64,000 bases of DNA from Reichenbachiella ulvae (GTDB taxonomy: Bacteria; Bacteroidota; Bacteroidia; Cytophagales; Cyclobacteriaceae), in contig NZ_JAOYOD010000001.1 of the NCBI RefSeq assembly GCF_025833875.1, positions 5,181,501 to 5,245,500 of the forward strand. Reading direction: 5' to 3'. The first letter of the stretch is position 1. Every line of letters begins with the position of its first letter. Position numbers and translations under genes: made by a program. Shown here piece after piece: positions 18,149 through 59,239 of the stretch. The notes below the pieces were generated by a model. The model did not search any database. It was not told the DNA's origin and saw only the letters and a list, made by a program, of their open reading frames with translations.

Positions 18149-18213
18149 TGCACAATCGAGCAAATCAAATAAACAATGAGAGCAAAGTTGAAATAGTTAG
18201 TTTTCTAGCTTTG
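18149..18213 (+). promoter_or_regulatory. PUL operator copy A with -7 box
   Basis: TGCACAATCGAGCAAA (18149-18164) matches the five-site consensus TGTACAATAGAGCAAA at 14 of 16. A second copy AAACAATGAGAGCAAA ends at 18186, 22 bp later. The -7 box TAGCTTTG starts at 18206, 42 bp after the end of the first copy. No TTTG -33 is present at standard spacing. It controls the sulfatase-GH43-sulfatase operon. Confidence 0.7.
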
Positions 18214-18241
18214 GGTTGATATAAACTCAATAAGCTTGACT

Positions 18242-19831
18242 ATGCGAAGATGGATTCTATTGCTGGGCATTGTACTCAGTTCTTTTTCTGGTTTCTCTCA
18301 AGAGAAGGAAAAGCCACCTAATTTTCTATTTATCGCTGTGGATGACCTCAATATCTACAACAGCCCAATGGGTAACTATCCGGGAAATTTTCTTGAGAAA
18401 ATCTATCCGAGTAAAATGAAGAGAAGTGAGGTGATTCAACGCTTGACACCTAACCTGGATCGATTAGGGCAGCAATCCATGATTTTTAATCGAGCTTTTA
18501 GTGCAGCTCCACTGTGTGGCCCTTCGAGAACGGCTCTGCTGACAGGTACACCTCCACATGTGTCAGGATATTATCAACATGACCAGCATTTCAGAGGATA
18601 TAGTTCTTTAACTAATGTTGTAACTCTACCTCAACATCTAAAGAATAACGGATATTATACGGTAGGGATCGGGAAGGTCTTTCACAAAGGTAGAAGCTAT
18701 CTAGACAGAGGAGTGTTTAGTGACTGGCCGGATCAGCTTTACTCCTGGTCAGAATGGGTAGAGGTGCATTCTGGAACTGCAGCAGGACCTGATTATGAAT
18801 TTGATAAATCCGAAACTCCTTCCAGATATTGGGAAAGTGATGGTAAAAGGAGTCATAATTACACTCGATTTGGATCGACATCAGTCCCAAGAGAAAAGGC
18901 GAATGATTATCTCAATGCTCAATTCATCGCGGATTTGATTGTGAAAGGTGAAGCCATTCGTCAGGATCTTCATGGCAAAGAACGAAACTTGACTCTTCCT
19001 CAAGACAAACCTTTCTTTCTGGCTTGTGGATTATTTGCTCCTCATTTGCCATGGGTGGTTCCACAAGAGTATCTGGATATGTTTCCGATTGACGAAATGG
19101 CTATCGATCAAGACTTGTTGGATTGGATAGAAAGCGATTTAAAGGACTTATCTGCTTATGGTCAAAACAAGACTAGAAATACCCACATGGATGAGCTTCG
19201 TCGTTTTGGAATAGAGTTGGATGGAAAGGGAGGGGATATGAATGCCTGGAAAGCCTACCTGCAGGCTTATTTAGCGACGATTGCTTATTCAGACAGAAAT
19301 ATCGGTGTATTGGTTGATGCCATAGAACAAAACCCACAGAAGGACAACACAGTAGTGATGCTCTGGAGTGATCACGGCTATCACGTCGGAGATAAGAACC
19401 GATCAGGGAAAGTGACACTATGGGAGGCGGCCAATCATTGTAATTTGATTATTCGAGATCCTCGAATCAAAGAAAGTACAGAAGGAAAAAGAGCGGAGAC
19501 ACCAGTGAGCTTGCAGGACTTGTATCCTACAGTAGTCTCTTTGGCAGATTTAGATAAACCAGAGCATGTGCATGGAGTAGATTTATCATTGATCCTAAAG
19601 AATAGTAAAGAAGAGCGTGGACAACCGGTATTGAACACCAATGGGAAGGATAATCACGCCCTGCGTACAGATGGCTTCAGATACATTCGATTTAGGAATG
19701 GAGATCAGGAGCTTTATGATTTGGAAAAAGATCCTTTCGAGGAAATTAATCTTGCAAAATCTGAAAAGCATCAAGAGCTACTAAACTCTTTATATCAACA
19801 ACTCAACGAAATGTTAAAGACAAGACCATGA
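18242..19831 (+). CDS. sulfatase, iduronate-2-sulfatase-like (S1 family)
   Basis: The protein is about 529 residues. The ATG at 18242 (MRRWILLLG) is preferred over an in-frame TTG at 18236. Signal peptide about 1-20. IAVDDLN near residue 32 supplies metal-binding aspartates. The catalytic motif Cys92-Gly-Pro-Ser-Arg96 (LCGPSRTALLTG) is matured to formylglycine by an anaerobic sulfatase-maturing enzyme not seen here. LWSDHGYHVGDKN gives the C-terminal metal site. It removes sulfate esters from an algal-type glycan in the periplasm. It is the first of a three-gene operon and overlaps the GH43 start as ATGA. Position specificity cannot be read. Confidence 0.9.
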   Translation: MRRWILLLGIVLSSFSGFSQEKEKPPNFLFIAVDDLNIYNSPMGNYPGNFLEKIYPSKMKRSEVIQRLTPNLDRLGQQSMIFNRAFSAAPLCGPSRTALLTGTPPHVSGYYQHDQHFRGYSSLTNVVTLPQHLKNNGYYTVGIGKVFHKGRSYLDRGVFSDWPDQLYSWSEWVEVHSGTAAGPDYEFDKSETPSRYWESDGKRSHNYTRFGSTSVPREKANDYLNAQFIADLIVKGEAIRQDLHGKERNLTLPQDKPFFLACGLFAPHLPWVVPQEYLDMFPIDEMAIDQDLLDWIESDLKDLSAYGQNKTRNTHMDELRRFGIELDGKGGDMNAWKAYLQAYLATIAYSDRNIGVLVDAIEQNPQKDNTVVMLWSDHGYHVGDKNRSGKVTLWEAANHCNLIIRDPRIKESTEGKRAETPVSLQDLYPTVVSLADLDKPEHVHGVDLSLILKNSKEERGQPVLNTNGKDNHALRTDGFRYIRFRNGDQELYDLEKDPFEEINLAKSEKHQELLNSLYQQLNEMLKTRP

Positions 19832-21456
19832 TGAAAAGAATTTTTTCGCCCTCCAAACTTCTTATTCTTTTAATTCTTACGCTGGGATCAAATGTATTTG
19901 GACAAGATCAACCAGAAACTTTCAAAAACCCTATACTAACAGGGTTTCACCCTGACCCGTCGATCTGCCGAGTAGGGGAAGACTATTACCTAGTCAACTC
20001 GAGTTTCGAGTGGTACCCTGGGTTGCCAGTTTATCACAGTAGAGACTTGGTCAACTGGGAGTTGATTGGCTATGGAATACACCGACCCAACCAAGTGCCT
20101 TTGCCAGAGGGGCTACCTGATTCACGTGGTGTGTACGCTCCTACAATCCGCTATCACGAGGGATTGTTTTATATCATCAATACTTGCGTGAAGTGCGAGG
20201 GTAATTTTTATATCACAGCTACTGATCCGGCCGGCCCATGGTCTGAGCCAGTTTGGTTGGGTACGCGAGGGATCGACCCGGAGATCTTTTGGGATGATGA
20301 CGGGCAGGCCTATTATGTAGGCCATGCCAATATCACAGGAGTGAATGACTGGCCCGATAAAAATGGTGCATGGATGCAGAAGTTGGATTTGGTCGAAGGC
20401 AAAGTAGTTGGAGAAAGAAAGCAGCTCACTCACGGTCATGCCAAAAATGCCCGGTGGACTGAAGGGCCTCATATTTATAAAATCAACGGTAAGTATATGC
20501 TCCTGGTGGCAGAAGGAGGGACTGGCTTTCACCATGCGATCACGGTGCATCATAGCGATAGCTTGTGGGGGCCGTATATCCCCGATCATTCAAATCCAGT
20601 GCTAACACATAGACATCTGGGTGCAGATTATCCGGTACACTCGGTAGGGCATGGAGACTTGGTGCAGCTCCCGTCAGGGGAGTGGTGGTTTGTTGGATTG
20701 GGCAAGCGAAAGGTTGATGGTAGCACGCTTTTGGCGCGTGAGACTTTTTTGACTCCTGTTAAATTTGAAGAACGAGAAGGTTATCCGACACCCGTTTTCA
20801 ATCCCGGAGTGGGGCATTTGTCCGTCGAGCAAAAGCGTCCTGATTTGCTCTGGACACCTTTTGATTCAAAAGAGCTTAAAGATGATTTTGACGGTAAGAT
20901 ATTGGATTTGAAATGGAATTTCCTGAGATCACCAATGACCACCTGGCATGGCTTGCATAAGGGACAATTGATCCTAAATACCCGCGCCGAGAAAATTGAA
21001 AATTTCGAAAATCCATCCTTCATTGCTCAGAGAATAGAGGATCATAATTTTAAGGCTGAGACTCAGGTATCTTTTTCGTCAAAAAAGAGCAATGAAAGTG
21101 CGGGACTGGTTCTCTATCGCAATAGCCAAAACCATTTTCAGTTGGTCAAAAAAGGAGATGAGGTGCAATTGATAAAAACCATCAGAGGTAAGCAGAACGT
21201 TGTAAAAAGGCAAAAAGTGAAATCTAACAAATTGGTATTAGGAGTTGAGAGCTCAGGAGTGAAAGCTGTCTTTTCTTTCAAAGAAGAGGATGGAAAACGC
21301 ATCGAATGGGATGAAGAACTGACTTTGCTGTCAGACGAAGTAGCAGGTGGCTTCAATGGCCCGTACATCGGCATGTACACCACCAGCGACGGACAAAAAT
21401 CAAAATCCAAAGCCTATTTCGATTATTTTATATACCAAGGGAAAGACAATGATTAA
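19828..21456 (+). CDS. GH43 family glycosidase with C-terminal beta-sandwich
   Basis: A 542-residue protein with signal peptide (MMKRIFSPSKLLILLILTLG). The five-blade propeller domain (about 33-330) holds the GH43 triad: Asp43 in GFHPDPS (base), Asp150 in RGIDPEIFW (pKa modulator) and Glu212 in RWTEGPHIYK (acid). A C-terminal sandwich (about 345-540) with DDFDGKILDLKWNFLRSP matches the GH43 C2 type common in beta-xylosidase/arabinofuranosidase members. The likely activity is exo removal of xylosyl or arabinosyl units, or another pyranoside from a sulfated glycan (inference). Its stop overlaps the next sulfatase start by 8 nt. A paralogue lies at 55448. Confidence 0.9.
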   Translation: MMKRIFSPSKLLILLILTLGSNVFGQDQPETFKNPILTGFHPDPSICRVGEDYYLVNSSFEWYPGLPVYHSRDLVNWELIGYGIHRPNQVPLPEGLPDSRGVYAPTIRYHEGLFYIINTCVKCEGNFYITATDPAGPWSEPVWLGTRGIDPEIFWDDDGQAYYVGHANITGVNDWPDKNGAWMQKLDLVEGKVVGERKQLTHGHAKNARWTEGPHIYKINGKYMLLVAEGGTGFHHAITVHHSDSLWGPYIPDHSNPVLTHRHLGADYPVHSVGHGDLVQLPSGEWWFVGLGKRKVDGSTLLARETFLTPVKFEEREGYPTPVFNPGVGHLSVEQKRPDLLWTPFDSKELKDDFDGKILDLKWNFLRSPMTTWHGLHKGQLILNTRAEKIENFENPSFIAQRIEDHNFKAETQVSFSSKKSNESAGLVLYRNSQNHFQLVKKGDEVQLIKTIRGKQNVVKRQKVKSNKLVLGVESSGVKAVFSFKEEDGKRIEWDEELTLLSDEVAGGFNGPYIGMYTTSDGQKSKSKAYFDYFIYQGKDND

Positions 21457-23029
21457 CATACAAAGTAGGTGGTTTTATTCATTCATAATTGCAGGGTTGC
21501 TTGCTTGCGAACACAAAATAAAGGAAGAAGTTGTAACTGTATCCAAGCCTAATATTATCTATATACTAGCTGACGATTTAAGTTATAAAGATTTAAGTGT
21601 TTTTGGTCAATCTCAGTATCAAACGCCTAATTTGGATGCGCTTTGTAATCAGGGCATTCGCTATGATCAGGCCTATGCGGCGGCTGGAGAATGTGCCCCC
21701 TCCAGAGGAACACTTTTGACAGGTCTTCATACAGGGCATGCTCCGATACGTCAAAACAGTAGTGTCAGAGGACAGGATCATTTAAGGGATGAGGACATCA
21801 CTATCGCCGAAGTGCTGAAGTCAGCAGGCTATCAGACTGCCTTTGTGGGTAAATGGGGGATAGGCCAGCCGGGTACGGAGGGAGTCCCATACAAACAAGG
21901 GTTCGATTACTCTTTTGGATTTTATGATCAGGTGCGAGCGCATACTTACTTTCCAAATTTCCTCTGGGAAAATGACCAAAAGATCGAGTACCGAGCCAAT
22001 CAGGGCTTTAATATGCAGAAACGCTATGATAGCAACGTTCGTGAACCGGGCCCAGAAGTACTCAATGAGTATACAGCAGAAGGGAAATTGGTTCTCAGTG
22101 AGGTAGCTGATCCAAATGGAGCTGTTTTTTCTGAAGCGGAAATGGAGAAGAAGGCTTTGTCATTTGTGGATCAAAATGCGGAACAACCGTTCTTCCTCTA
22201 CTATGCTACTCAGTTACCCCACGGGCCTGTCATCATTGATAGTTTAGGCGCGGACATGAACAATCGAAAAGATCTACCACTTAAGCAAAGAGAATGGGCG
22301 GCAATGGTTCAGCGTCTGGATTACTTTACCGGTCAGTTAGTAGCCAAACTGAAGGAAAAAGGAGTCTATGAAAATACCCTGATCGTATTTTCGTCTGATA
22401 ACGGTTACTCCATGGCTGGATACATGGGCAGGGGTAATGCGCCTGATTGGGAAAATGATCCCTGGTTGGATAACAAGGGTCCATTCAGAGGGGGTAAGTT
22501 TTCAGTGCTAGAGGGAGGGTGCAGAGTCCCCATGTTTGCGCATTGGGCAGGTAAGATCGAGCCACAAGTGTCTCAGACTCCTGTTTGGTTACCAGACTGG
22601 TTTGCTACTTTTGCGCAGCTGAGTGCAGCTGACTCGGTACCTATCAATGATGGTGCAGATCTACAAGCAACCTGGAGTATGCAAGAAACTCTTTTACAAG
22701 ACAGAGCCTTATATTTTTCTAGAGGTAGGGAACAGGCTGTCCGAAAAGGAAAATGGAAAGCTTACCGAAAGACTCCGGATCATGATGTTGAATTATATGA
22801 TATAGCGAATGATAGCTATAGTCAAAACAATCTGGCCAATGATTACCCAAAAGTAGTTCAAGAGCTCACTCATGTACTCAATGATAGCCATACCCCATCT
22901 CAGTGGTACTGGGACCCATGGGAGAACAGGATAGAATATGATGCCAAGAAGCAATTGGCCCTTGAAACAAATCAGATACTACCTGTCATTCGACCCAATA
23001 GTATCCAAAAGTTACCTTGGGAAAAGTAA
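21449..23029 (+). CDS. lipoprotein sulfatase, arylsulfatase-like (S1 family)
   Basis: The protein is about 526 residues from MINIQSRWFYSFIIAGLLAC; Cys20 is a lipobox cysteine. The longer frame from 21347 lies inside the GH43 gene and lacks a signal. The catalytic motif is Cys82-Ala-Pro-Ser-Arg (GECAPSRGTLLTGLHTGH), with ILADDLSYKDLS upstream and FSSDNGYS for the second metal pair. Lipid anchoring places it on a membrane surface, unlike the soluble first sulfatase of the operon. It resembles the arylsulfatase A-type group and is closest in layout to the sulfatase at 59261. It ends at a strong bidirectional terminator. Confidence 0.9.
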   Translation: MINIQSRWFYSFIIAGLLACEHKIKEEVVTVSKPNIIYILADDLSYKDLSVFGQSQYQTPNLDALCNQGIRYDQAYAAAGECAPSRGTLLTGLHTGHAPIRQNSSVRGQDHLRDEDITIAEVLKSAGYQTAFVGKWGIGQPGTEGVPYKQGFDYSFGFYDQVRAHTYFPNFLWENDQKIEYRANQGFNMQKRYDSNVREPGPEVLNEYTAEGKLVLSEVADPNGAVFSEAEMEKKALSFVDQNAEQPFFLYYATQLPHGPVIIDSLGADMNNRKDLPLKQREWAAMVQRLDYFTGQLVAKLKEKGVYENTLIVFSSDNGYSMAGYMGRGNAPDWENDPWLDNKGPFRGGKFSVLEGGCRVPMFAHWAGKIEPQVSQTPVWLPDWFATFAQLSAADSVPINDGADLQATWSMQETLLQDRALYFSRGREQAVRKGKWKAYRKTPDHDVELYDIANDSYSQNNLANDYPKVVQELTHVLNDSHTPSQWYWDPWENRIEYDAKKQLALETNQILPVIRPNSIQKLPWEK

Positions 23030-23089: not shown

Positions 23090-25591
23090 TTAAAACTCTT
23101 TATTCCCAAACTCACTCTCTGCAAATTTCGCCTTGTTTTTTAGCTTATTGAATTTGTAGCTGACATTGATCATGATAATATCTACCTCATAAACGTAATT
23201 GGTCGTGGTATAGAAGGCCTTGCGTACTCCATCTGCTGGATCGATATAGTCACCAGATGTGCTTATGCGCTGCTCATTGGTATCAAGTAGCCCCATGTCC
23301 ATATTGAGCCATTGTAGAGTAGTGGAAAGTCTTTCATCCAGAAATGATTTGCTCAAAGTCAAATTAGGTGAATAGAAACGAGAGTCTTTGCCTTGTGCAG
23401 TGATCCTTTCAGATAGGTAATTAAGTGACCATTGTAGATCCATCGTAGGCGATAGAGCAAATGTGGTGTTGATATTGGCTAAATATTGCCAGGCTTTGGG
23501 GTTAATTTTGGTTTGGTTAAACTCCCCGTCAATTTGATAGTGGTAGATGTTGGTTCCAGCATAGAGTGTCCACCATTTGGTTAGGTTCATTTCTGTACCG
23601 ATTTCCAATCCAAAAGCTTTGCCTCGACCCACGTTGGTGTAGATTCTATTCAGTACTGTATCACTATCCACTGTATTCACTCTGTTGATGACGTTTTCTG
23701 TGTTTCTGAAATAGGTAGTTGCAAAAAATGATTGATTCTCAAAGTCTTTAATTATCCCCAATTCGACTAAGTCTATGAATTCTGGTAATAAATTGGCATC
23801 TCCTTGCTCTAGTGTTTCTGAATGCTCCTTTTCTTTAAAAGGATTCATTTTGAAGGTAGTAGTCCGTTCTACTCTTTTACTATAAGCGGATTTGATTTTA
23901 AAATCTTCGCTTACGGCATATTGTAGACTAGCTGATGGGAAAAATCTAAAATAATCGTAATTCAGTACCTGTCTTTGGTCTCCAATGCTCCGACCGATGT
24001 AGTCTAGTTTTCGATCCATTAGTTCAGTTCTCAATCCAATTCCATAGTTCCATTGGGCACCTTCTCCATCCAGATTGATGTAGGCAGAGTGTATGCTTCT
24101 TTTTAGGTTGAGATTGCTTGAATACTCGGGTACAATATTCCAGGAGTCAGAATCAAAATCATAAGCCTCGTACAAAAAGTCTCCCTGATGATCAAGGTGT
24201 CTGAATTGATACCCTACTGTCCATTGTCCCAATAGGGTGGGGGCTAAATCATAGTCTAAATTGAAACGTGTACCATAAAGTGGATTGTCATTGGTATTAT
24301 ACTCGTCATTATAGATGCTTTGATCCTGACGCCAATTGGTAGCGAGGTTTCTATTCGTGGTAGGGCCTCCTAGGAGGGTGTATTCGTACAAAGCGGAAAG
24401 ACTTAGCTTAGATTCATTGGAGAATCGGTGACTGTAATCAAAGCTACCAAGGGCAAAATCACCAGTACGAATGCGGAGGTTTTCATTGTAGTAATCGAAT
24501 GCGCTGATCTGACCTCCGTCTGGCAACTGATAGGTTTTGTTGTCATAGTAGATGTCAGCCGTTCGGTCTTTTGATCTTTTTCCTCCATATATGCTGATAT
24601 TAAAGTCATTTCTCTCATTTGGGTGGAAACCCACAGCCATGCGACCTGAGTAGTTGGTTTCGTCAAAACTTCTCTCTCCATCAGAAGGGAACTCGGTACG
24701 TTTGTCTCCGATTTCGGTCCAGACATCACCTTCTCTTCGACCAGATTTGTCGTTTCTAAGATAGCTGCCGCCTAATGCGAGATCCCATTTGTCCTTTCGG
24801 TAATTGAGAGTAAAGTCAGCTCCATATCGCTGAGCGGCCTCTTTGTTGTCATAAGGTTCGATGCTGGGTAGACCGACCTTGACGTTGACCTGAGCAAACA
24901 GCCCATCTGTGGCATTTTGTGTGGTAATGATGTTGATAATTCCAGCTTTTCCTTCTGAGTCATACTTGGCAGATGGTGCAGTGATGATTTCTATGTTCTT
25001 AATGGAGTTGGCGGGGAGTTGGTTTAACAAAAGTGCTGGGTCAGACTGTATGGGTTGGCCATTGAGAAGGACTACAAAACCTGTACTGCCACGCACAGAC
25101 ATATTTCCTTCTGCATTGATGCTAACTGAGGGCATGTTGCGAAGCACGTCAGTGGCAGTGCCTCCCTGGCTATTTTGGAACTGGTCTGCTTCGAAGACCT
25201 GGCGATCCAGCTGATGCATGGTGGTTACTTTTTGACCAGATACGACCAGTTCTTGGAGGAGTTGTTCATTGGGAGACAGGGCAATTGCTCCAAGGTCCAA
25301 TGCTTGTTTTTTGTCAATAGATATACCATCGATCGTTTTGTCTTCAAAACCCATGAACTGAATGGTAAGTGTATAATTGCCTGCTTTCAGATCATTCAAA
25401 GAGAAGGCACCATTCATATCCGAAACTACCCCTTTGACAAAGGACTGAGTATTAGATTCGTAAAGAATGACGCTAGCAAACTCTATGGGCGCTTGTTCAG
25501 AATCGTCAACCAATCTACCCGAAAGAGTCGATTGGGCGAGGCAGAATTGGGAGGTTAAGGCGGATAGAATTGCAATTAGTATTTTTCTCAT
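23090..25591 (-). CDS. TonB-dependent receptor, OMP beta-barrel type, not SusC
   Basis: An 833-residue outer-membrane receptor. Signal peptide, then a carboxypeptidase-regulatory-like domain (about 22-110: STLSGRLVDDSEQAPIEFASV). The plug region has ATDVLRNMPSVSINAEGNMSVRGSTG and VLLNGQPI, and a beta-barrel follows to the end. This layout fits the CarboxypepD_reg plus outer-membrane beta-barrel family 3 group rather than SusC, and no SusD partner is adjacent. It may import an oligosaccharide or metal (calcium is needed by sulfatases) or act as a signalling receptor; none of this is shown. It has no copy of the shared operator upstream and is transcribed against the flanking operon. Confidence 0.85.
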   Translation of the reverse strand: MRKILIAILSALTSQFCLAQSTLSGRLVDDSEQAPIEFASVILYESNTQSFVKGVVSDMNGAFSLNDLKAGNYTLTIQFMGFEDKTIDGISIDKKQALDLGAIALSPNEQLLQELVVSGQKVTTMHQLDRQVFEADQFQNSQGGTATDVLRNMPSVSINAEGNMSVRGSTGFVVLLNGQPIQSDPALLLNQLPANSIKNIEIITAPSAKYDSEGKAGIINIITTQNATDGLFAQVNVKVGLPSIEPYDNKEAAQRYGADFTLNYRKDKWDLALGGSYLRNDKSGRREGDVWTEIGDKRTEFPSDGERSFDETNYSGRMAVGFHPNERNDFNISIYGGKRSKDRTADIYYDNKTYQLPDGGQISAFDYYNENLRIRTGDFALGSFDYSHRFSNESKLSLSALYEYTLLGGPTTNRNLATNWRQDQSIYNDEYNTNDNPLYGTRFNLDYDLAPTLLGQWTVGYQFRHLDHQGDFLYEAYDFDSDSWNIVPEYSSNLNLKRSIHSAYINLDGEGAQWNYGIGLRTELMDRKLDYIGRSIGDQRQVLNYDYFRFFPSASLQYAVSEDFKIKSAYSKRVERTTTFKMNPFKEKEHSETLEQGDANLLPEFIDLVELGIIKDFENQSFFATTYFRNTENVINRVNTVDSDTVLNRIYTNVGRGKAFGLEIGTEMNLTKWWTLYAGTNIYHYQIDGEFNQTKINPKAWQYLANINTTFALSPTMDLQWSLNYLSERITAQGKDSRFYSPNLTLSKSFLDERLSTTLQWLNMDMGLLDTNEQRISTSGDYIDPADGVRKAFYTTTNYVYEVDIIMINVSYKFNKLKNKAKFAESEFGNKEF

Positions 25592-25676
25592 TGATGTCGA
25601 ATTTATTTTTTCAACAAAGAAAAATTACATGATGATATCCGCTTCGCCTTATCATCCTAATCTCTAGCACTATTGT

Positions 25677-26537
25677 TCATTTATAGGCTGAAGGCCAATT
25701 TTCTATCGATTTGATCTCGATGTCTTTGTAAAAAATCTCGGCTCCTTCCGATTGTAAAATGATTTTTCCTTTCTCTAGTGGAAGTAAATTTCCTTCTTCA
25801 TCGATCATTTTCGAATTGAACAGTCGCATCACTACACGGCCATTGACCACATAGATGGATTGATCCTCTAGACAGAGCAGTTCGATTTCATTCCATTCGC
25901 CATGTTTGTTTTCATTGTCGAAGGCTTTGATGCATCTCCAGGTATGATAGGGTTTATCGGTGTGTGTGATAGTTTGGAGAGGAGATCCTTGTTCAAAATA
26001 ATGATAACCTACCTGCTCGTTTTTATATCCTGGTATATCTATTTGAACTCTGCCAATACTCCAGTAGTCTCCTACATCTCCTTGCTGTATTTGCATCTCC
26101 TGACTATGAGGCCATTTGCCATTGGAACTGCCTCCCTCACCAAAGGCATGGTAAAGTAGTCCGCTATCACGTGGTTTGCCTAATCTGGGCGCATGAGTAT
26201 CTTCACCCCATTTGAACTTGAGTTTTAAATGATAGTTACCATAGATTTTGGTGGTTTCTAAAGTGCCGAAGGCCTGGCCACTCACACGGATTACTTTTTC
26301 TCCATCTAGTTCTACTACGCTGTAGACCTGCAGTGGATCGTTTCCCGTTCCGAAGGGTATGTAGTTGCCTTCAGAGTCTTTTTTGCAAGCCGAGCAGGGA
26401 GTGCTCGAATCGGGCGCATCTAGATAGGATTGCCAACCGTTCAGGTTTTTTCCATTCCATAGAGGAGTCCAGTCTTTGGTTTGACCGTGGCAAAGTGAAG
26501 ATATAGTCAGAAGAATTGATAAAAGAATTAATCGCAT
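25677..26537 (-). CDS. DUF1080 / 3-keto-disaccharide hydrolase family protein
   Basis: A 286-residue secreted protein (signal MRLILLSILLTISSLCHGQ). KDWTPLWNGKNLNGWQSY is the typical DUF1080 opening. The jelly-roll core continues with YGNYHLKLKFKWG, RDSGLLYHAFGEGG and HSQEMQIQQGDVGDYWS, and ends with EGAEIFYKDIEIKSI. Some DUF1080 proteins hydrolyse 3-keto-glycosides and others may only bind glycans. This copy has a short insert with two Cys (STPCSACKK). It overlaps the upstream beta-helix gene by 10 nt, so the two form a minus-strand pair. A second DUF1080 protein is at 53207. Confidence 0.85.
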   Translation of the reverse strand: MRLILLSILLTISSLCHGQTKDWTPLWNGKNLNGWQSYLDAPDSSTPCSACKKDSEGNYIPFGTGNDPLQVYSVVELDGEKVIRVSGQAFGTLETTKIYGNYHLKLKFKWGEDTHAPRLGKPRDSGLLYHAFGEGGSSNGKWPHSQEMQIQQGDVGDYWSIGRVQIDIPGYKNEQVGYHYFEQGSPLQTITHTDKPYHTWRCIKAFDNENKHGEWNEIELLCLEDQSIYVVNGRVVMRLFNSKMIDEEGNLLPLEKGKIILQSEGAEIFYKDIEIKSIENWPSAYK

Positions 26538-28951: not shown

Positions 28952-29016
28952 TGTACAAAAGAGCAATTCCTTAGCACATTTGTACAGCCTGTCTGTTTTT
29001 ATAATCTGTAGCTTTA
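28952..29016 (+). promoter_or_regulatory. PUL operator copy B with -7 box
   Basis: TGTACAAAAGAGCAAT (28952-28967) matches the shared operator at 14 of 16. The -7-like box TAGCTTTA begins at 29009, again 42 bp after its end. A facing partial copy on the other strand (28971-28986) makes TGTACAAA/TTTGTACA an 8-bp inverted repeat with 19 nt between. The same-strand second copy is weak here. It precedes the sensor genes at 29120 and 29738. Confidence 0.65.
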
Positions 29017-29119: not shown

Positions 29120-29680
29120 ATGAGGAATTATTTTAAAAAAATCGATAGCAGGGGTGTTTTGTATTTCATACTTTGGCTATGTTTTGCCCTAATGGCATAT
29201 CTATTCGAAACTAAACAATGGGTAGAATTGCCTCCTTCCTTGGTTACCAACCTAAGTAGTTCATTTGTTATGTTCTCTCTTTTTTTCCTGGTGTTGCTGT
29301 ACGGTAAGGAATGGAAAGCAAAAAGTGAGGAGAAATCGAAACTGAGTGAGTCACTCAAGTCAGCACCTATAGTAATCGAAGGGGGAATTGGAGATGATAA
29401 GCGCCTACAGTTTGAAGTCTATGCAGCTAAAAGAGCTTTGAGGTTACGTGACAGAATTTTAGCCAAATATGCATTTACCAATTCTCATGAGATCAGGCAG
29501 CCAGTGGCCAATATTGTTGCGTTGGCGATGCTTTTAGAAAAAACTGAAAATGCCCAGGATCAAAAAGAACTCATTTCTGCGATCAAGGGTGCAGCAGAGG
29601 CTCTAGATGAAAGAATCATCAAGCTCAATGATACCCTAACCTTAACTAATGTTAAAAAAAGAGAACCCATTCCAACCTGA
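29120..29680 (+). CDS. small membrane protein with HisKA-like domain and no ATPase
   Basis: A 186-residue protein. Two membrane spans lie at about 12-29 and 44-62 with a short outer loop. A cytoplasmic coiled part leads to LAKYAFTNSHEIRQPVANIV, where His123 sits in an H-box-like SHEIRQP sequence, followed by a second helix (ALDERIIKLNDTLTL). This matches a histidine-kinase dimerisation/phosphotransfer helical hairpin, but no N, G1 or G2 box follows; the frame ends at a normal stop. It could be a phospho-acceptor for another kinase or a structural partner. It lies 57 nt before the propeller-MCP gene under operator copy B. I do not recognise a named family. Confidence 0.6.
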   Translation: MRNYFKKIDSRGVLYFILWLCFALMAYLFETKQWVELPPSLVTNLSSSFVMFSLFFLVLLYGKEWKAKSEEKSKLSESLKSAPIVIEGGIGDDKRLQFEVYAAKRALRLRDRILAKYAFTNSHEIRQPVANIVALAMLLEKTENAQDQKELISAIKGAAEALDERIIKLNDTLTLTNVKKREPIPT

Positions 29681-32700: not shown

Positions 32701-33493
32701 GATGAAGTTCGCCGAAGAGACAGGACAACAGGCGGAGGTTATTAATACCAGTGCAGTTCTTGGGGTAGAAAAGAGTGAGAATGGTATGAAAATTATTCAA
32801 AATCTCAATGAGGACATGGGGCGGATTTCGCAACATTCTGCCGGTTCTATTGACTCTATCAATACCTTGAGTGCTAAGGCCAACGACATTGTAAGAGTAC
32901 TCAATATCATCAAAGAGATTGCTTCTCAAACGAATCTATTGGCATTGAATGCTGCTATTGAGGCAGCACAGGCAGGTGATGCAGGAAGAGGATTTGCGGT
33001 AGTTGCTGAGGAGATCAGAAAATTGGCAGAAGGCTCTAAAAATTCTGCCAAAGAAATAGATCAAATCGTGACTGATGTGTTGGGGCAGACAGAGCGTACG
33101 ACTAAGCTGATTCATGAGATGAATGAGACGGTCAAAGGTGGAGGAGATTCCACACAAAAGGCATCTTTGGCTTTTGAGGAGATTACGACTTCATACGCAG
33201 AGACACTGGAGATGTCCAGGAAGATTTTAGATTCTACCAAACAACAGGCGAGCGATTTGGGAAGAATAGTTGAAACCACAGAAGGTGTCGTGGTGATTGC
33301 CGAGGAGACAGCTGCGGGCACTGAAGAATTGGCCAGTTCGGCTTCCCAACTGTCGGTTGGGATGGAGGGCTACACGTATAAGGTGATGAATGTATCCGAA
33401 ACCGTTGAGCGACTCAATCGAATGGTGAATCAGTTCCAATTGGAACAGCGGCTGGAATCAATTGAATGGAGAGAACAAATGAAAGCACTTTAG
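29738..33493 (+). CDS. periplasmic propeller/Y_Y_Y sensor fused to a methyl-accepting chemotaxis domain
   Basis: A 1251-residue single frame. Signal peptide 1-20. About 25-680 are two-component-regulator propeller repeats ([44 protein letters not shown]). About 684-770 is a Y_Y_Y domain ([30 protein letters not shown]). One membrane span lies at about 776-793. Two HAMP-like stretches follow at about 840-910 ([18 protein letters not shown]). The MCP signalling hairpin covers about 930-1235, with the highly conserved tip [20 protein letters not shown] near 1066. Hybrid PUL sensors normally end in histidine kinase, receiver and AraC domains; none are present. It should bind a glycan fragment outside and signal to CheA/CheW inside. 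It lies within an operon with the DHp-like protein and downstream catabolic genes. Confidence 0.9.
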
Positions 33494-45791: not shown

Positions 45792-45802
45792 AGCATAGCA
45801 TT

Positions 45803-53120: not shown

Positions 53121-53186
53121 AGTACAATAGAACAACTATTAAGATGAATTGAGCTAAGCAAAAGAAGCGATGAAAGCTACTTTAGT
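53121..53186 (+). promoter_or_regulatory. PUL operator copy D with -7-like box
   Basis: AGTACAATAGAACAAC (53121-53136) matches the shared operator at 13 of 16. A weaker second copy (AATTGAGCTAA core, ending 53157) is 21 bp later. The -7-like TACTTTAG (one mismatch) starts at 53179, 43 bp after copy one. It precedes the DUF1080-sulfatase-GH43-GH27 operon. Confidence 0.62.
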
Positions 53187-53206: not shown

Positions 53207-54004
53207 ATGAAAAAACTAATAGCCTGTGCCTGGCTTCTCATGGCTCTTCAGTCTTATGGGCAGCAAGTGCTTTCTAAAGAAGAATACACCCCTCTTTTCA
53301 ATGGCGAGAATTGGGATGGTTGGTATCTGAAAATCAGAAGTGGTGATCCAGAGGAAGCCAATCGAGTCTTTGCCATTGAGGATGGGATGATCCACGTATT
53401 CAAAAATCATCCAGATAGTTTTAACCTCAATCAAGGTAATAACAAGACCCATGGTCTCTTCTATACTGAAAAGAAATACAGCATGTATAGTTTTCGCTTC
53501 GAGTATAAATGGGGGGACAAAATCATGAATAATTTCGACCAGTTTCAATATGATGCTGGACTTTACTACCATGTGTACAACGACAAGATCTGGCCGTTTG
53601 GTTTAGAATACCAGATACGCTATGATCATACCAAGAATGAAAACCATACTGGTGACTACTGGGCGAGTACGGTTCAGATGCAATGGTATGCCGATGAAAA
53701 TGGTAGAGCTGCTTTACCCAAAAATGGAGGGGTAACTCAAGAGATCAAAGGAGGAGAGCATCTAGCCAAAATCCCCAAAGTCCATCATGCTCTCGATGGC
53801 GAATGGAATCAGTGTGAGGTGATCGTGATGGCAGATCAATATTCCATTCATAAACTCAATGGTGAAATTGTGAATTATGCCACCGATTTTGATCAGAAAG
53901 AAGGAGTGATAGGTCTACAGTCAGAAACCGCAGAGATCTACTATCGGAATCTGGAAATCAGAGAGTTTGATCAGTTTGTTCCAGCAAATCAATTTTTCAA
54001 ATAA
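53207..54004 (+). CDS. DUF1080 / 3-keto-disaccharide hydrolase family protein 2
   Basis: A 265-residue protein with signal peptide (MKKLIACAWLLMALQSYGQ). The family opening YTPLFNGENWDGWYL is followed by jelly-roll strands (YSMYSFRFEYKWGD, DAGLYYHVYNDKIWPFGLEYQI) and the closing EIYYRNLEIREF. It differs from the 25677 copy in lacking the Cys-rich insert. It heads an operon with a sulfatase 5 nt downstream, then GH43 and GH27, all plus strand. Confidence 0.85.
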   Translation: MKKLIACAWLLMALQSYGQQVLSKEEYTPLFNGENWDGWYLKIRSGDPEEANRVFAIEDGMIHVFKNHPDSFNLNQGNNKTHGLFYTEKKYSMYSFRFEYKWGDKIMNNFDQFQYDAGLYYHVYNDKIWPFGLEYQIRYDHTKNENHTGDYWASTVQMQWYADENGRAALPKNGGVTQEIKGGEHLAKIPKVHHALDGEWNQCEVIVMADQYSIHKLNGEIVNYATDFDQKEGVIGLQSETAEIYYRNLEIREFDQFVPANQFFK

Positions 54005-54009
54005 GCAAC

Positions 54010-55431
54010 ATGAAAAGATGTTATTTTCTGCTCATTTTGGTCTGTTGGCTCGGTTCTGATTTATGTGCTCAAAAGCAAGATGAAAAGCCAAATGTGGTTT
54101 TTATCATTGCAGATGATCTCAATGGCTACAAGACAAGAGACGAGTATCCAATCATTCAAACACCATTTTTGGATAGTTTTAAAAATCAAGCAATCAATTT
54201 TGTCAATTCGACATGTTCCACCCCTGTTTGTGTACCGAGTAGAGCCTCATTCTTAAGTGGAATTGCACCAGAAAAGTCGGGTGCCTATCACAATGGTTCG
54301 GACCCTTGGCGTGCATCTGACATACTGAGAGAGGTAACCACTCTTCCGGAGCATTTTAAGGCTAATGGCTATACTACCTGGGGCAAGGGGAAGATATTTC
54401 ATGCTAAAATGGAGGGAGATCGAGCCAATGTGATGTTCGATAATCAATATTGGGGAGGAGGATTCGGTCCATTTGGAGATGATGCGCATCAGGAGTGTAA
54501 TTCGCCGTTCAAATCCGTACAACCCTGGACCAATCCAGATAGTGAGTTCCCTGATGTCGTCAATGCAGATGATGCTATTGCCTTTTTGGAGGAGGATCAT
54601 GAAGATCCTTTTTTCTTATTTTATGGACTATGGAGGCCACATACTCCATACACAGCTCCGAAACGTTTTTTTGACCTCTACCAACAGGAGAATATGCCGA
54701 TACCAGAGGGTTATTTGAAAGGTGATTTGTCTGATGTGCCAATGATGGGGCGTTTGCTGGTTGATTCGCTGAATATGACCAGATGCAATGAAACCGGGGA
54801 GATAGATACGACTACCTGGAAGAAATTTCTCTGGGGCTATGCAGCTACTACTTCCTTCGCCGACTGGAATATGGGCAGGGTAGTAGATGCCCTGGACAAG
54901 AGCGCCTATGCTGACAATACCATTGTGATTGTTTGCTCTGATAATGGATACCATATGGGAGAAAAATTGCGCTGGCAGAAGGGGACCATGTGGGACTTTT
55001 CAGCCCATACTCCTTTGATGATACGAATGCCAGACAAATCGAAAGCGATTTCGACCCGAACGGTAAGTCTGCTTGACTTGTATCCAACGCTTGTCGAATA
55101 CTGTAGTTTGAGCGAACCGTCGCATGAATTGGATGGGAAAAGCATGGTGCCTTTGCTCATGAATCCAGATGCGAATTGGGATCGTCCTTCCTTTACTACA
55201 TATGGTGTCAATTATTCTTCCGTCCGAGGGGAACGCTACCATTACATACGTTACCCCAATGGAAAACAGGAACTGTACGATTTAGAATATGATCCTTTTG
55301 AATTCGAAAACCTACTATTTGAGAAGACTGATCAATATGACGAGATAATAGCCGAATTGAGTAAGCAAATACCGGAAATGTGGAGGACACAATTGCCTGG
55401 TAGATGGGAGGATATTCAGAATGAAAAGTAA
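54010..55431 (+). CDS. sulfatase (S1 family)
   Basis: A 473-residue periplasmic protein (signal MKRCYFLLILVCWLGSDLCA). FIIADDLNGYKT supplies the metal pair. The catalytic motif Cys74-Val-Pro-Ser-Arg is in PVCVPSRASFLSGIAPEKSG. VCSDNGYHMGEKLRWQKGTMW gives the late metal ligands. Layout is like iduronate-2-sulfatase-type members and it is the shortest of the five. It is second in the operon from operator D, followed by GH43 after 16 nt. Confidence 0.9.
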   Translation: MKRCYFLLILVCWLGSDLCAQKQDEKPNVVFIIADDLNGYKTRDEYPIIQTPFLDSFKNQAINFVNSTCSTPVCVPSRASFLSGIAPEKSGAYHNGSDPWRASDILREVTTLPEHFKANGYTTWGKGKIFHAKMEGDRANVMFDNQYWGGGFGPFGDDAHQECNSPFKSVQPWTNPDSEFPDVVNADDAIAFLEEDHEDPFFLFYGLWRPHTPYTAPKRFFDLYQQENMPIPEGYLKGDLSDVPMMGRLLVDSLNMTRCNETGEIDTTTWKKFLWGYAATTSFADWNMGRVVDALDKSAYADNTIVIVCSDNGYHMGEKLRWQKGTMWDFSAHTPLMIRMPDKSKAISTRTVSLLDLYPTLVEYCSLSEPSHELDGKSMVPLLMNPDANWDRPSFTTYGVNYSSVRGERYHYIRYPNGKQELYDLEYDPFEFENLLFEKTDQYDEIIAELSKQIPEMWRTQLPGRWEDIQNEK

Positions 55432-55447
55432 AAAGACTAATTAAAGC

Positions 55448-57670
55448 ATGAATAAGAAGATATATGGGGTATTGGTGTTGACTTTATTTTGTCAACTCGC
55501 GATTGCTCAATTAGAAATATTTGATAACCCTGTGCTCTCAGGGTTTCATCCAGACCCATCTGTTGTCAGGGTGGGGGATGACTACTACCTAGTTAACTCC
55601 TCATTCGAATGGTTTCCGGGTATTCCAATATTTCACAGCAAGGATTTGGTCAACTGGGAGCAAATTGGGTATGTACTTGACCGTCCTTCACAGTTAGATA
55701 TGTCTGGTAATCGATCTTCGTCAGGCATTTGGGCACCTACGATAAGGTATCATGAGGGTATGTTCTATGTGTCTGTTACATGCAAACAGTGTAAGAATGA
55801 TTGCAACTGTGGGGATAATTTTTATGTCACAGCTGAGAATCCAGCTGGTCCGTGGTCTGATCCGGTCTGGATAGATGGAAGCCAGCATAGTATCGATCCT
55901 ACATTGTATTTCGAGGATGATAAGGTGTATTATATTGGGAATAGACACCGGTTTGCTGGACAGAGCGATCCTGGTCAACATCAGATATTTATTCAAGAAC
56001 TGGACTTAGAAAATGGAAAGCTTTTAGGCGAGTCGACTCATCTTACTTATGGGCATGCCACCAATGCTTTTGCTGCTGAAGGGCCCCATCTATATAAGGT
56101 CAACGGTAAATATCTTTTACTGATATCAGAAGGAGGAACCTGGCACAATCATGCCATCACCACATTCGTAAGTGATAGTATTTTGGGACCATATGAGCCT
56201 ACCGCCATCAATCCTGCGATTACCCATAGACATCTTGGAGAGAACTACTCAATTACGACCATAGGTCATGCCGATCTGGTGGAGGATCAAAACGGCCAGT
56301 GGTGGTCCTTATTGCTAGGGGTGAGACCTGTTGATGGATACAATATTCTCGGAAGGGAAACCTTTTTGACTCCTGTCAAATTCGAGGGCATTCAACCAGT
56401 ATTCAATGTAGGTAAGGGCAAGGTTTTGGAAGAAGAAATTCGACCAGCTTTACCTTGGACTCCATGGGAGAAACAAGCTAGCCGAGATGAATTTAACGAA
56501 GAGAGGTTGTCCTTTAATTGGAATTTTCTTCGTACCCCACAAGAAGCCTTGCACTCGATCAAGAAAGGAAATCTCTACTTAAAAGTTCGACCCGAAAAGT
56601 TGACTGAAGCTAGTAATCCTTCATTGGTCGCCAGACGAATCGAACATTACAAGTATCAAGCAACGACTCGATTAAAGTTTTCTCCATCAAGTAATGAGGA
56701 GGCAGGAATTGTCGCTATACAAAACGATCGCTTCAACTATCGATTGATTTTGACGATGGAAGGAAATAACCAGTATGTGAAATTGATTAAAGCATACAGC
56801 AAAAAAAGAAAAGAATTGAAAGAGGAAGTCGTGGCTCAAGAACCATACAAGGGTGATGAAATTGTGTTTCGTGTCGTTCAGAACAGATTGAATATCAAGT
56901 TTTGGTTCGGTGAAACAGAGGAAAACCTCCGTCTAATTGGAGAGAATCAGGATGCCAGAGTTTTAGCCTCTAATGTTGCTGGAGGTTTTACAGGACCATA
57001 TGTGGGGATGTACGCATCTTCTAATGGAGAGAAAAGTAGAAACACAGCTGCTTTTGATTGGTTCGAATATTTGCCTCAAGAAAAACAGTTTGCAGAGGAA
57101 GTGGATGGAAATCTAGTAGTGGAGGCAGAAGACTATTTCTCCCAAACAAACAATCAGAACAGACAATGGTATATTATTAACTCGGGCACGGAAGCGAAGT
57201 TGAAGCCTGAGGTAGAGAGTCATTTGGAAGGTGCCAGTGGAGGGAGTTATCTCGAACTGCTACCAGATAGCAGAGTGACTCATGCTGATAAGCTGGTTCC
57301 AGGGATCAATTTCTCCAATCATCCGGGAATTGCGATAGTTGATTACAAAGTTAAAATCAAAACACCTGGTAGATACTACGTTTGGGTCAAGGCCTATTCA
57401 CATGGTACAGAAGACAATGGTGTACATGTCGGTTTGGATGGCGAATGGCCAGAAAGTGGCCAAAGAATGCAGTGGTGCAAGGGTAAAAAGCAATGGACCT
57501 GGGATAGTAAACAACGCACCAAGGAAGTGCATTGTGGAGTGGAGAAACTGATCTATCTGGACATTCATGAACCGGGAGAGCATATCATTTCTTTTTCTAT
57601 GCGCGAGGATGGGTTCGAGATGGACCAATGGGGATTAAATCAGAATTATGAAATACCAGAATTAAAATGA
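55448..57670 (+). CDS. GH43 family glycosidase with two C-terminal beta domains
   Basis: A 740-residue secreted protein (signal about 1-20). Triad: Asp36 in GFHPDPSVV, Asp150 in HSIDPTLYF, Glu211 in FAAEGPHLYK. A GH43 C2-type sandwich follows (about 340-540: EFNEERLSFNWNFLRTPQ). An extra domain at about 550-735 has VEAEDYF, TPGRYYVWVKAYSHGTEDNG, GLDGEWPESG and EHIISFSMREDGFEMD; it resembles a GH115 C-terminal or CBM-like module. It is clearly related to the 19828 GH43 but longer. A cysteine-rich insert (CKQCKNDCNCG) extends the CVKC site of the paralogue and may hold a metal or disulfides. The stop overlaps the GH27 start. Confidence 0.9.
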   Translation: MNKKIYGVLVLTLFCQLAIAQLEIFDNPVLSGFHPDPSVVRVGDDYYLVNSSFEWFPGIPIFHSKDLVNWEQIGYVLDRPSQLDMSGNRSSSGIWAPTIRYHEGMFYVSVTCKQCKNDCNCGDNFYVTAENPAGPWSDPVWIDGSQHSIDPTLYFEDDKVYYIGNRHRFAGQSDPGQHQIFIQELDLENGKLLGESTHLTYGHATNAFAAEGPHLYKVNGKYLLLISEGGTWHNHAITTFVSDSILGPYEPTAINPAITHRHLGENYSITTIGHADLVEDQNGQWWSLLLGVRPVDGYNILGRETFLTPVKFEGIQPVFNVGKGKVLEEEIRPALPWTPWEKQASRDEFNEERLSFNWNFLRTPQEALHSIKKGNLYLKVRPEKLTEASNPSLVARRIEHYKYQATTRLKFSPSSNEEAGIVAIQNDRFNYRLILTMEGNNQYVKLIKAYSKKRKELKEEVVAQEPYKGDEIVFRVVQNRLNIKFWFGETEENLRLIGENQDARVLASNVAGGFTGPYVGMYASSNGEKSRNTAAFDWFEYLPQEKQFAEEVDGNLVVEAEDYFSQTNNQNRQWYIINSGTEAKLKPEVESHLEGASGGSYLELLPDSRVTHADKLVPGINFSNHPGIAIVDYKVKIKTPGRYYVWVKAYSHGTEDNGVHVGLDGEWPESGQRMQWCKGKKQWTWDSKQRTKEVHCGVEKLIYLDIHEPGEHIISFSMREDGFEMDQWGLNQNYEIPELK

Positions 57671-59091
57671 TACAAATAATGGCAAGGGTAAATTATAAAT
57701 GCCGACTATTGGCTATAGTATGCTTAATGGCAGCATGCTCTCAATCGGTCACTGATTCGAAAAAAGAAGTGGAGGAAAGTGCCGTTCAGTCTGAACTGGT
57801 GGCTCAAACACCGCCCATGGGATGGAATAGTTATAACTCTTGGGGGGCAGCTGTGACAGAAAAAGAAGTACGTGCCAATGCAGAGTATATGGCTAAGCAT
57901 ATGAAAGACAAGGGGTGGGAGTATATCGTGGTTGATTACTGCTGGTCCTATCCTCATCCACCGGGCAGTATTCAGAGCAACCCTCCACAATTTAGGTTGA
58001 AAAAGGACAATGCACCTGTGCCATGGTTGGCTATGGATGAATATGGTAGGTTGCTACCGGATTCAAGGAAGTTTCCATCATCAGTTGGAGGCAAGGGATT
58101 TAAACCCCTGGCGGATTACATACATTCTTTAGGTTTGAAGTTCGGGATTCACGTCATGAGAGGAATTCCCAGGCAAGCAGTCTGGGCAGATAGTCCTATT
58201 AAAGGCACTGATGTGACCGCAGGGCAGATCGCTGACACTACATCAACTTGCCCATGGCTCAATCAGATGTATGGTGTCGATATGACTAAAATGGGGGCTC
58301 AGGCATATCACAATTCTCTGATCGACCTATATTCTGAATGGGGAGTGGACTTTATCAAAGTAGATGATATTGATCTCAAAGAAGGGTACCCATACCGTAA
58401 GGATGAAGCTGAAGCGTTTAGAGAGGCAATAGACCAGGGGGATAGACCCATGGTGCTTAGTCTGTCCCTAAATATGAAATACATGAATAGAGATCATGTA
58501 CAAAAGCAAGGTGATATGTGGCGAATCTCAAAAGATTTTTGGGATGAATGGAGATTGCTACGTGATCAATTTGACCTAACCGCCAAATGGTCTTCTATGA
58601 GTGGACCAAACAGTTGGCCTGATGCAGATATGCTACAACTGGGAAGGATCTCTAGAAGAGGTCCTAAAGAAGAAGAAAGGGATAGCAGGTTTACAAAAGA
58701 TGAGCAAATCACACACATGTCGCTTTGGTCCATTGCCAGATCACCATTGATGATGGGAGGGGATATGCCAATGAATTCGGATTTTGTGCTAGCGCTATTA
58801 ACCAATGAGGAGGTAATCAAAGTCAATCAAAAAGGGAATAATCCAAAGGAGGTTTACAATGATGGTCAATTGGTAATATGGAAGTCTGAAGCTGCCGATG
58901 GGGGGATCAATTTGGCATGTTTCAATATTTCGGATGAAGATCAAAAGTATAAGATTGACTTGGTAGGGCTTGGGTTGGTTGGAGAATATTCGGTTCGGGA
59001 TTTATGGAAGCGTCAAGATTCAGGTACTGTTTCATCTCAACTCGTTGTTCAACTGAACCAGCATGGATCAGCGCTGTATTTACTTCAGTAG
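57667..59091 (+). CDS. GH27 lipoprotein, alpha-galactosidase-type
   Basis: A 474-residue lipoprotein (lipobox Cys24 in CLMAAC). The TIM barrel opens PPMGWNSYNSWGAAV. WEYIVVDYCWS and GLKFGIHVMRG follow, and the nucleophile Asp233 is in DFIKVDDID. The acid/base region reads GPNSWPDADML. The C-terminal beta-sandwich ends at ALYLLQ. Typical GH27 alpha-galactosidases have KxDxC after the nucleophile; here the Cys is missing, which places it in a divergent subgroup. Members of GH27 also include beta-L-arabinopyranosidases. Last gene of the operon from operator D. The ATG overlaps GH43 as ATGA; an alternative start is 57679. Confidence 0.9.
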   Translation: MIQIMARVNYKCRLLAIVCLMAACSQSVTDSKKEVEESAVQSELVAQTPPMGWNSYNSWGAAVTEKEVRANAEYMAKHMKDKGWEYIVVDYCWSYPHPPGSIQSNPPQFRLKKDNAPVPWLAMDEYGRLLPDSRKFPSSVGGKGFKPLADYIHSLGLKFGIHVMRGIPRQAVWADSPIKGTDVTAGQIADTTSTCPWLNQMYGVDMTKMGAQAYHNSLIDLYSEWGVDFIKVDDIDLKEGYPYRKDEAEAFREAIDQGDRPMVLSLSLNMKYMNRDHVQKQGDMWRISKDFWDEWRLLRDQFDLTAKWSSMSGPNSWPDADMLQLGRISRRGPKEEERDSRFTKDEQITHMSLWSIARSPLMMGGDMPMNSDFVLALLTNEEVIKVNQKGNNPKEVYNDGQLVIWKSEAADGGINLACFNISDEDQKYKIDLVGLGLVGEYSVRDLWKRQDSGTVSSQLVVQLNQHGSALYLLQ

Positions 59092-59117
59092 GTAGGGGTT
59101 GTGTTCGTTCACGCATG

Positions 59118-59187
59118 GCTCTATTGTACACAAGCCTTTTCAAAATGTCCATTTAAGGCATGTTATGTACGATGTGTACAATAGAGC
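59118..59187. repeat. 15-bp perfect inverted repeat with nested hairpin
   Basis: GCTCTATTGTACACA (59118-59132) and TGTGTACAATAGAGC (59173-59187) are exact reverse complements 40 nt apart. GCCTT/AAGGC is nested inside. The right arm is the core of operator copy E. The arrangement could be a looped operator pair or an RNA stem that ends the upstream operon. Confidence 0.75.
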
Positions 59188-59239
59188 AAAGAACAAAAAA
59201 TGGAGAGCAAATCACTCCTAGTTCCTTCCGCTATGTTTG
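59175..59239 (+). promoter_or_regulatory. PUL operator copy E with -7 box
   Basis: TGTACAATAGAGCAAA (59175-59190) serves as the reference copy. A partial second copy ending GGAGAGCAAA stops at 59211, 21 bp later. A -7 box TATGTTTG starts at 59232, 42 bp after copy one and 29 nt before the sulfatase ATG. It supports 59261 as the true start. Confidence 0.72.

Follow-up and report, generated by a model that had tools for sequence, protein, structure and literature searches.

Which switch controls the operons of the polysaccharide utilization locus (PUL) of Reichenbachiella ulvae, and to which regulator does it answer? We analyzed a 64,000-nucleotide stretch (the window; bases 5,181,501-5,245,500 of the main contig of the 5.56-Mb source genome), in which the PUL runs from ~18,000 to the window end and continues for at least 48 kb further; positions beyond 64,000 are given as continued window coordinates. 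An initial annotation had read five 16-mers upstream of PUL operons as one direct-repeat operator at a fixed distance from a -7 box, and all five are present letter for letter at 18149, 28952, 37629, 53121 and 59175. They belong to a composite element that, judged from its sequence and conservation, is very probably the operator of an AraC-type hybrid two-component system (HTCS), HTCS1, placed in a fixed register with a Bacteroidota housekeeping-type promoter. HTCS1 is the most likely owner of this switch because the same arrangement recurs at related clusters of other Bacteroidota, often beside the same sensor-regulator gene.

The element reads TGTACAAtAGAGCAAA-5 bp-AAAACAATnGAGCAAA-20 bp-TAnnTTTG and spans 65 bp in all, with two tandem copies of a 16-bp motif followed by the -7-like box. 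All five lie on the plus strand. Element 1 (18149-18213; copy 1 at 18149-18164, copy 2 at +21/+22, -7 box TAGCTTTG at 18206-18213) precedes sulfatase-GH43-sulfatase genes at 18236-23029. Element 2 (28952-29016; TAGCTTTA at 29009-29016) is upstream of genes for a small HisKA-like protein (29120-29680), a propeller-HAMP-MCP fusion (29738-33493), a protein with a type IX secretion system (T9SS) tail and a sulfatase. Two SusC/SusD-like pairs (37822-47491) and later genes follow element 3 (37629-37693; TACTTTTG at 37686-37693), and a 3-keto-disaccharide hydrolase, a sulfatase, a GH43 and a GH27 (53207-59091) follow element 4 (53121-53185; TACTTTAG at 53178-53185). Downstream of element 5 (59175-59239; TATGTTTG at 59232-59239) are a sulfatase (open reading frame (ORF) 59237, likely start 59261), a GH27 (60773-62227) and the HTCS1 gene from 62294.

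The -7-like box starts at +57 from the first base of copy 1 in all five sites. The boxes carry 6, 5, 6, 5 and 6 of the six fixed letters, that is, three are exact and two have one mismatch to TAnnTTTG. At least five of six letters are found at 0.8% of positions, and among offsets 50-69 only 57 gives such a box in all five sites. The distance from copy 1 to the box had been annotated as 43 bp at site 53121 and 42 bp at the other four; the former was a miscount (TACTTTAG starts at 53178), and the spacing is 42 bp throughout. Similarly, the weaker second copy that had been described 21-22 bp downstream at four sites, over the -33 region, exists in all five. It lies at +21 in each, the top offset between -120 and +160 outside the site itself (z 5.4). 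Copy 2 is weak at site 28952 (score 5.3, attained by ~0.5% of positions), and at site 18149 a second GAGCAAA sits at +22. This geometry would fit, as had been proposed, an AraC-type activator dimer on direct repeats two helical turns apart.

Bacteroidota primary-sigma promoters are described as having TAnnTTTG at -7, with a -33 TTTG in B. fragilis that was not identified in F. johnsoniae (PMC7366714, PMC9723704). The -7 box agrees with this description in all five elements, whereas a TTTG of the B. fragilis type near -33 is lacking in four, and copy 2 occupies that region instead. The annotated absence of a standard -33 TTTG thus stands for four sites (no TTTG within offsets 20-49) and fails for site 28952, which has one at offset 27. 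The sigma-A -7 consensus of Flavobacterium psychrophilum is stated to span -12 to -5 (PMC9723704). If the -7 box occupies that span, the two copies are centred at ~-61.5 and ~-40.5. At araBAD (I1-I2), AraC activates in class II fashion from direct repeats 21 bp apart, with the downstream site at the -35 region and centres at ~-61 and -40. The element resembles araBAD, in geometry only, in its 21-bp direct repeat and in a downstream half-site over a -35-type region. By analogy with AraC at araBAD, the simplest reading is that tandem AraC-type domains bind the copies and that the downstream one stands in for the -33 contact. Unlike at araBAD, the regulator would be a membrane-spanning hybrid kinase, the promoter is of the Bacteroidota -7 type, and a single inverted copy is present, with no loop shown. 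This copy (59115-59130, minus strand) is identical to copy 1 at 14 of 16 positions and lies 60 bp upstream of element 5; none comparable was found within 200 bp upstream of the other four elements. It is possibly an extra regulator site or a loop partner.

How specific is the element within its own genome? The annotation had named a motif equally common in unrelated regions as the outcome that would count against it. The 16-mer by itself is indeed not specific, because at up to three mismatches it has 78 genome matches against 41 for a reversed control. The composite ACAATNGAGCAA-N42-TANNTTTG behaves differently: at up to two mismatches, 8 of its 9 matches in the 5.56-Mb genome fall within the locus. 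Five of the nine defined the pattern; of the other four, three are in the locus and two of those are at gene starts. At up to three mismatches, matches are largely noise, since 39 were found versus 17 for the reversed pattern. Matrix scans of the own genome covered 148 kb (~295,870 positions) and left out stretch L155 because it contains N. With the composite matrix, each held-out site ranked fifth of 295,870 positions, directly behind the four training sites, in all five leave-one-out runs. Elsewhere in the genome, 45 stretches, of which 20 surround SusC genes of other loci, gave a maximum of 16.4 in 489,408 positions with the five-site matrix; an 88-locus background set was not used, since it holds copies of the window sites. 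A sequence-only model of the five sites (R1), with a sensitivity below that of the matrix, gave four non-training matches (E 0.4-2.6), two of them in the locus.

The proposed regulator is encoded at 62294-64000 on the plus strand and continues past the window (L031:3794-8026, 1410 aa). It combines propeller repeats, Y_Y_Y, HisKA, HATPase, a receiver and an AraC-type helix-turn-helix (HTH) in one chain, with all domain families above curated cut-offs, so the earlier nomination of the 62294 product as the candidate regulator was sound: it is a full HTCS with an AraC domain. The annotation had also stated that this gene lacks the element. That holds for the gap immediately upstream; the gene is, however, the third behind element 59175, and this order is kept in two Fulvivirga-type contigs.

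Conservation was profiled in 390 genomes of the same family. The composite, at up to one mismatch, matches in 30 genomes, with three matches in the source genome and two, on different contigs, in one other. The HTCS1 DNA-binding domain was compared with the same genomes and, among the matches listed, its nearest relatives are 85% (G284) and 84% (G289) identical and from one genus, the next are 72% (G096) and 71% (G016) identical and from another single genus, and the rest reach at most 47%. By genome type these are Fulvivirga-type genomes, then Agaribacillus (Cytophagales). G284 and G289 had already been matched by the composite pattern on the same contigs, where the HTCS genes begin ~2.9 kb downstream of the matches. 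The Fulvivirga-type order, measured on G289, is element, sulfatase (71% identity), GH27 (69%) and HTCS (55%), the same as 59175-59237-60773-62294. In G289 the element scores 28.4 versus 10.3 for the runner-up position in 30.7 kb, and G284 has a second site, with two mismatches, 77 bases before a SusC-like gene (recognized by eye). The SusC promoter adjoining the HTCS carries a diverged tandem copy in G096 (Agaribacillus; score 12.4) and in G016 (15.6), and G096 also has an element scoring 20.3 upstream of a sulfatase-GH43 gene. These relatives were reached through the DNA-binding domain and through GH27 alignment; the whole HTCS1 sequence gave no match against the genome contigs. In seven other genomes of the genus, the best match listed for the 59237 sulfatase is 39% near full length, with shorter segments at up to 52%. 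A composite match recurring in six genomes of genus g82 (L126, L127, L132, L133, L136 and L137; ACAATAAAGCAAAAGGATAAAGCAAAA...) was rejected as chance, as it lies in the promoter of an unrelated gene, which we take to be Nif3-like; the likeness reflects either chance or another regulator.

We then examined 26 loci picked by GH27 alignment only, with no use of the operator: 19 from Bacteroidota and 7 from other groups (Puniceicoccaceae, KSB1, Catenovulum, two from Marinagarivorans and two from Alteromonas). Loci with a score of at least 15.5 with the five-site matrix were called element-positive. This was the case for 14 of the 19 Bacteroidota loci versus none of the 7 others, where top scores were 8.7-14.0. 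The positive loci come from Flavobacteriia (Leeuwenhoekiella), Saprospiria (Flavilitoribacter), Bacteroidia (Draconibacterium) and, weakly (17.5), Cytophagia (Flexithrix). Ten loci have an HTCS1-like domain in the stretch, and nine of them are element-positive; the tenth, from Agaribacillus (L216), is the one scoring 12.4 at its SusC promoter. The other four element-negative Bacteroidota loci (L210, L223, L227 and L230) have no HTCS1-like domain in the stretch either. Elements are placed as promoters would be: for 25 of 27, the 5' end of an ORF of at least 100 residues follows within 200 nt, compared with 328 of 3000 positions drawn at random from these loci. Scores of at least 16 occur 26 times in 0.65 million positions of the real Bacteroidota loci, never in 0.28 million positions of the non-Bacteroidota loci, and 8 times in 9.29 million positions of shuffled loci (shuffled in 3-base blocks, not a strict dinucleotide shuffle). 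For the shuffles, the offset work and the other-species matrix, L206 was omitted as a near-copy of L205, so that 18 of the 19 Bacteroidota loci were used.

The register recurs in these loci. Of 18 Bacteroidota loci scanned with the best site chosen by the two copies only, 14 scored above 12, and in 11 of these a TAnnTTTG-like box stood at offset 57; no other offset recurred. When the best site was chosen by copy 1 and the -7 box only, the second copy appeared at +21 (z 5.1, 13 loci). The latter result bears on a quite improbable alternative, in which the operator consists of copy 1 only, with copy 2 incidental, and a dimeric regulator not of the AraC type recognizes an imperfect dyad (TG..C.AT.G..CA) centred at ~-61.5. 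Copy 1 does have partial two-fold symmetry and is far stronger than copy 2 in leave-one-out scans (ranks 1-24 for copy 1 alone and 94 to 36,060 for copy 2 alone), and candidate sites 99015 and 111612 have poor second copies. Moreover, the search for a travelling partner covered HTCS domains only, and other regulators were not systematically excluded. Against this, +21 is the top offset in the five sites and again in the 13 other-species loci.

With a matrix derived from 19 elements found in other species (12 of the 18 loci), the five sites took ranks 1-5 of 295,872 positions (elements 2, 3, 4, 5 and 1, in that order), a result that is partly circular because those elements had been picked with the five-site matrix. 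The remaining top positions are less circular. Among the top 18 positions, 16 are promoter-positioned, on both strands (expected fraction 4.8%), and excluding the five sites leaves 11 of 13. This makes it very improbable that the sequence only reflects base composition or an extended core-promoter preference and that no dedicated regulator is involved. That explanation could draw on the -7 box inside the element and on the A+T-richness of promoters, but 300 column-permuted matrices of the same composition placed on average 1.7, and at most 7, of their top 18 positions at promoters versus 16, and the 16.4 ceiling in the 45 other stretches of the genome also speaks against it. A sequence model trained on the 19 foreign elements was run over the whole genome, where 150 of 2191 first-look candidates were scored; it yielded 7 matches with E < 0.05, six in the locus and the seventh inside a coding ORF. 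Positions 3262290 and 2677353 (inside coding ORFs), 23446 (antisense in a TonB gene) and 1729 (not promoter-positioned) were rejected as chance.

Besides the circularity mentioned above, several observations weigh against assigning the element to HTCS1. In the whole-genome model just described, element 59175 took no better than eighth place (E 0.3), and the matches below it were mostly outside the locus. Five positive loci (L209, L211, L213, L214 and L220) have no HTCS1-like domain within the stretch examined. The best HTCS domain elsewhere in those five genomes is 40-53% identical versus 34-42% in the element-negative Bacteroidota genomes, ranges that touch. An element (score 17.6) was seen next to an HTCS of this sort only in Draconibacterium (L249). 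Near the best-matching HTCS domains of Lutibacter, F. flevense, Prolixibacteraceae and Prado053, no element of at least 13 stood out, apart from one of 13.3 in Lutibacter. The top copy pair has no good -7 box at +57 in L216, L220 (TATCTTGA) and L229. The 19 Bacteroidota loci are not 19 independent lineages, because L205 and L206 are near-copies and L212 and L219 come from one metagenome-assembled genome. Finally, at 12 other HTCS-linked SusC promoters of the source genome the 21-bp/-7 geometry was not detectable singly (z 0.76; -7-like box in 8 of 12; a weak test), and 8 SusC promoters without a nearby HTCS gave no such signal either (z 0.64; box in 7 of 8; equally weak). Extending the geometry to the other HTCS promoters of the genome is therefore unsupported, as no 21-bp/-7 signal is seen one promoter at a time.

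A second HTCS gene in the locus offers another owner for the operator. HTCS2 (C1:5266285-5270547; L032:8285-12547) lies ~18 kb beyond HTCS1, encodes a protein 36% identical to it and could be a co-regulator, which likewise counts against exclusive control by HTCS1. That the operator belongs to HTCS2, or is shared between the two with overlapping binding sets, we consider unlikely. HTCS2 is inside the region, and weak candidate elements precede SusC 76218 (76112, plus strand) and the sulfatase-HTCS2 genes (83231, plus strand). The divergent promoters at L031:12544-12760 (window ~71044-71260) carry a GAGCGC/GCGC variant of the copy (71139, minus strand; 71172, plus strand), a pair that could mark HTCS2 sites. 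Joint motifs for paralogous HTCS pairs have been proposed in B. thetaiotaomicron rhamnogalacturonan loci (PMC3878776). However, elsewhere the element goes with an HTCS1 orthologue, twice in the same sulfatase-GH27-HTCS operon, and the second recognition region of HTCS2 differs. Two segments, one SRTKLYNK-like and one VGIQSQSYFTK-like, recur across nine orthologous DNA-binding domains, the latter (in the second HTH) being kept in 8 of 9 aligned orthologues; HTCS2 shares the SRTKLYNK-like segment and has VGIQSSSNFTK as the second.

With HTCS1 as the regulator, we infer the following course of ligand binding, phosphorylation, operator binding, activation and transcription start. The periplasmic propeller would bind an oligosaccharide set free from the target glycan, which is probably sulfated, and the kinase would phosphorylate the receiver of the same protein and thereby release the AraC-type domain. 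A pair of these domains would occupy the two 16-bp copies, which follow each other at 21 bp on the same face of the DNA, and the downstream unit would substitute for the missing -33 contact and keep RNA polymerase on the -7 box. The switch would turn on the sulfatases, GH43, GH27, the SusC/SusD pairs, other operons on both strands and the propeller-chemoreceptor fusion, with HTCS1 itself possibly turned on by read-through.

The kind of operator is already known, because published HTCS operators take the form of direct repeats ~21 bp apart. For B. thetaiotaomicron, 16 HTCS motifs have been predicted, each of them a direct repeat, with a mean distance of 21 bp; in the HTCS_Man motif, 5 bp separate two sites of 16 bp each (Ravcheev et al. 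2013, PMC3878776). The present element resembles those operators, as described there, in its ~21-bp direct repeat and in its position before SusC/D and enzyme operons near an AraC-type HTCS gene, and it is also kept in orthologue-bearing genomes. It is like HTCS_Man in its dimensions. Unlike the B. thetaiotaomicron operators (PMC3878776), it occurs outside Bacteroides and in four classes, has a measured exact register with the -7 box, represents one regulator-operator pair traced across classes and counts a chemoreceptor fusion among its putative targets. We found no report of a fixed repeat-to-(-7) distance or of an HTCS operator followed across classes; subscription journals were mostly outside the search, and such data may be shown in the figures or supplements of PMC3878776 and PMC5061871. 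The legend of Figure S3 in the latter mentions predicted HTCS sites and -7 boxes as marked (PMC5061871).

The chemoreceptor fusion (29738-33493) joins a Reg_prop propeller, Y_Y_Y, HAMP and MCP, an HTCS-like sensor with a chemoreceptor output. It is 26% identical to HTCS1 over its first 800 residues and has three more long genome matches (41-44% over the last ~650-750 residues; not domain-scanned) as well as relatives in other genera. Our literature search found no paper on a propeller-MCP fusion, nor, in print, such a fusion as a predicted HTCS-operator target. The first ORF behind element 28952 (29120-29680; 186 aa) encodes a protein in which hydrophobic stretches can be made out by eye; it has a HisKA-like segment and lacks an ATPase domain. 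The chances are about even for a broader proposal. In it, a single clade of HTCS would have retained its operator, always at the same rigid spacing to the -7 box, through four classes of Bacteroidota, so that a search for the 65-bp composite in one genome would reveal the regulon of this HTCS. In the lineage of the window the switch would also drive a propeller-sensing chemoreceptor, linking the induction of glycan digestion to motility toward the same glycan. Among the regulators of glycan use in Bacteroides, HTCSs form a major class, and operator predictions for them come mostly from that genus. The present work pairs one HTCS with one operator by their conservation over four classes, and the promoter register is narrow enough for further targets to be predicted, the chemoreceptor among them; five short DNA fragments and one protein provide direct material for binding and start-site tests.

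The initial annotation had confined the regulon to five operons and had stated that minus-strand PUL genes lack the element. One promoter set does cover the sulfatase, GH43, GH27, SusCD and chemoreceptor-fusion operons; the regulon nevertheless looks larger, because 16 of the 18 top positions are promoter-positioned, and it would include minus-strand genes. Promoter-positioned minus-strand elements, contradicting the second statement, are those at 25679 (weak), 71139, 98957, 102897 (GH43) and 111589 (sulfatase). The first (25615-25679; copy 1 TGAACAATAGTGCTAG, -7 box TTTCTTTG) leaves a 23-nt leader to the TonB receptor gene 23090-25591 and has 3 mismatches (score 18.3, rank 17). On the plus strand, in addition to 71172, 76112 and 83231, candidates were found at 99015 and 111612. 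A weak internal one (33463-33527, -7 box TAGATTTG, rank 13) lies at the end of the MCP fusion gene and precedes a later start of the T9SS-tail ORF 33509-35830. At 33463, 111589 and 111612 the -7 box falls between the first possible and a later start of the element's own ORF. Candidates scoring below ~17 are individually weak.

The 66-bp gap between the GH27 and HTCS1 genes (62228-62293, plus strand) contains a hairpin followed by T-rich TATTTTTG, resembling a terminator (-18.5 kcal/mol, z -2.7). This hairpin may attenuate read-through into HTCS1 or may mark a separate basal promoter. By eye, no obvious hairpin was found in the GH27-HTCS gap of the two Fulvivirga-type contigs, which suggests that the HTCS there could auto-activate from the operon element. 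In the source genome, the terminator-like hairpin may limit HTCS1 auto-activation.

The locus as a whole encodes sulfatases, GH43, GH27, GH2, 3-keto-disaccharide hydrolases, the two HTCS and four SusC/SusD-like pairs, two of which are inside the window. In the SusC-like protein at 42795-45791, only carboxypeptidase-regulatory domains were matched. GH43, GH27 and GH2 together with the sulfatases suggest a sulfated (arabino)galactan as a possible target glycan; a marine arabinogalactan user has been reported without GH27. Past the window end, an apparent ORF of 3937 aa in L155 crosses a run of N and is probably an artefact.

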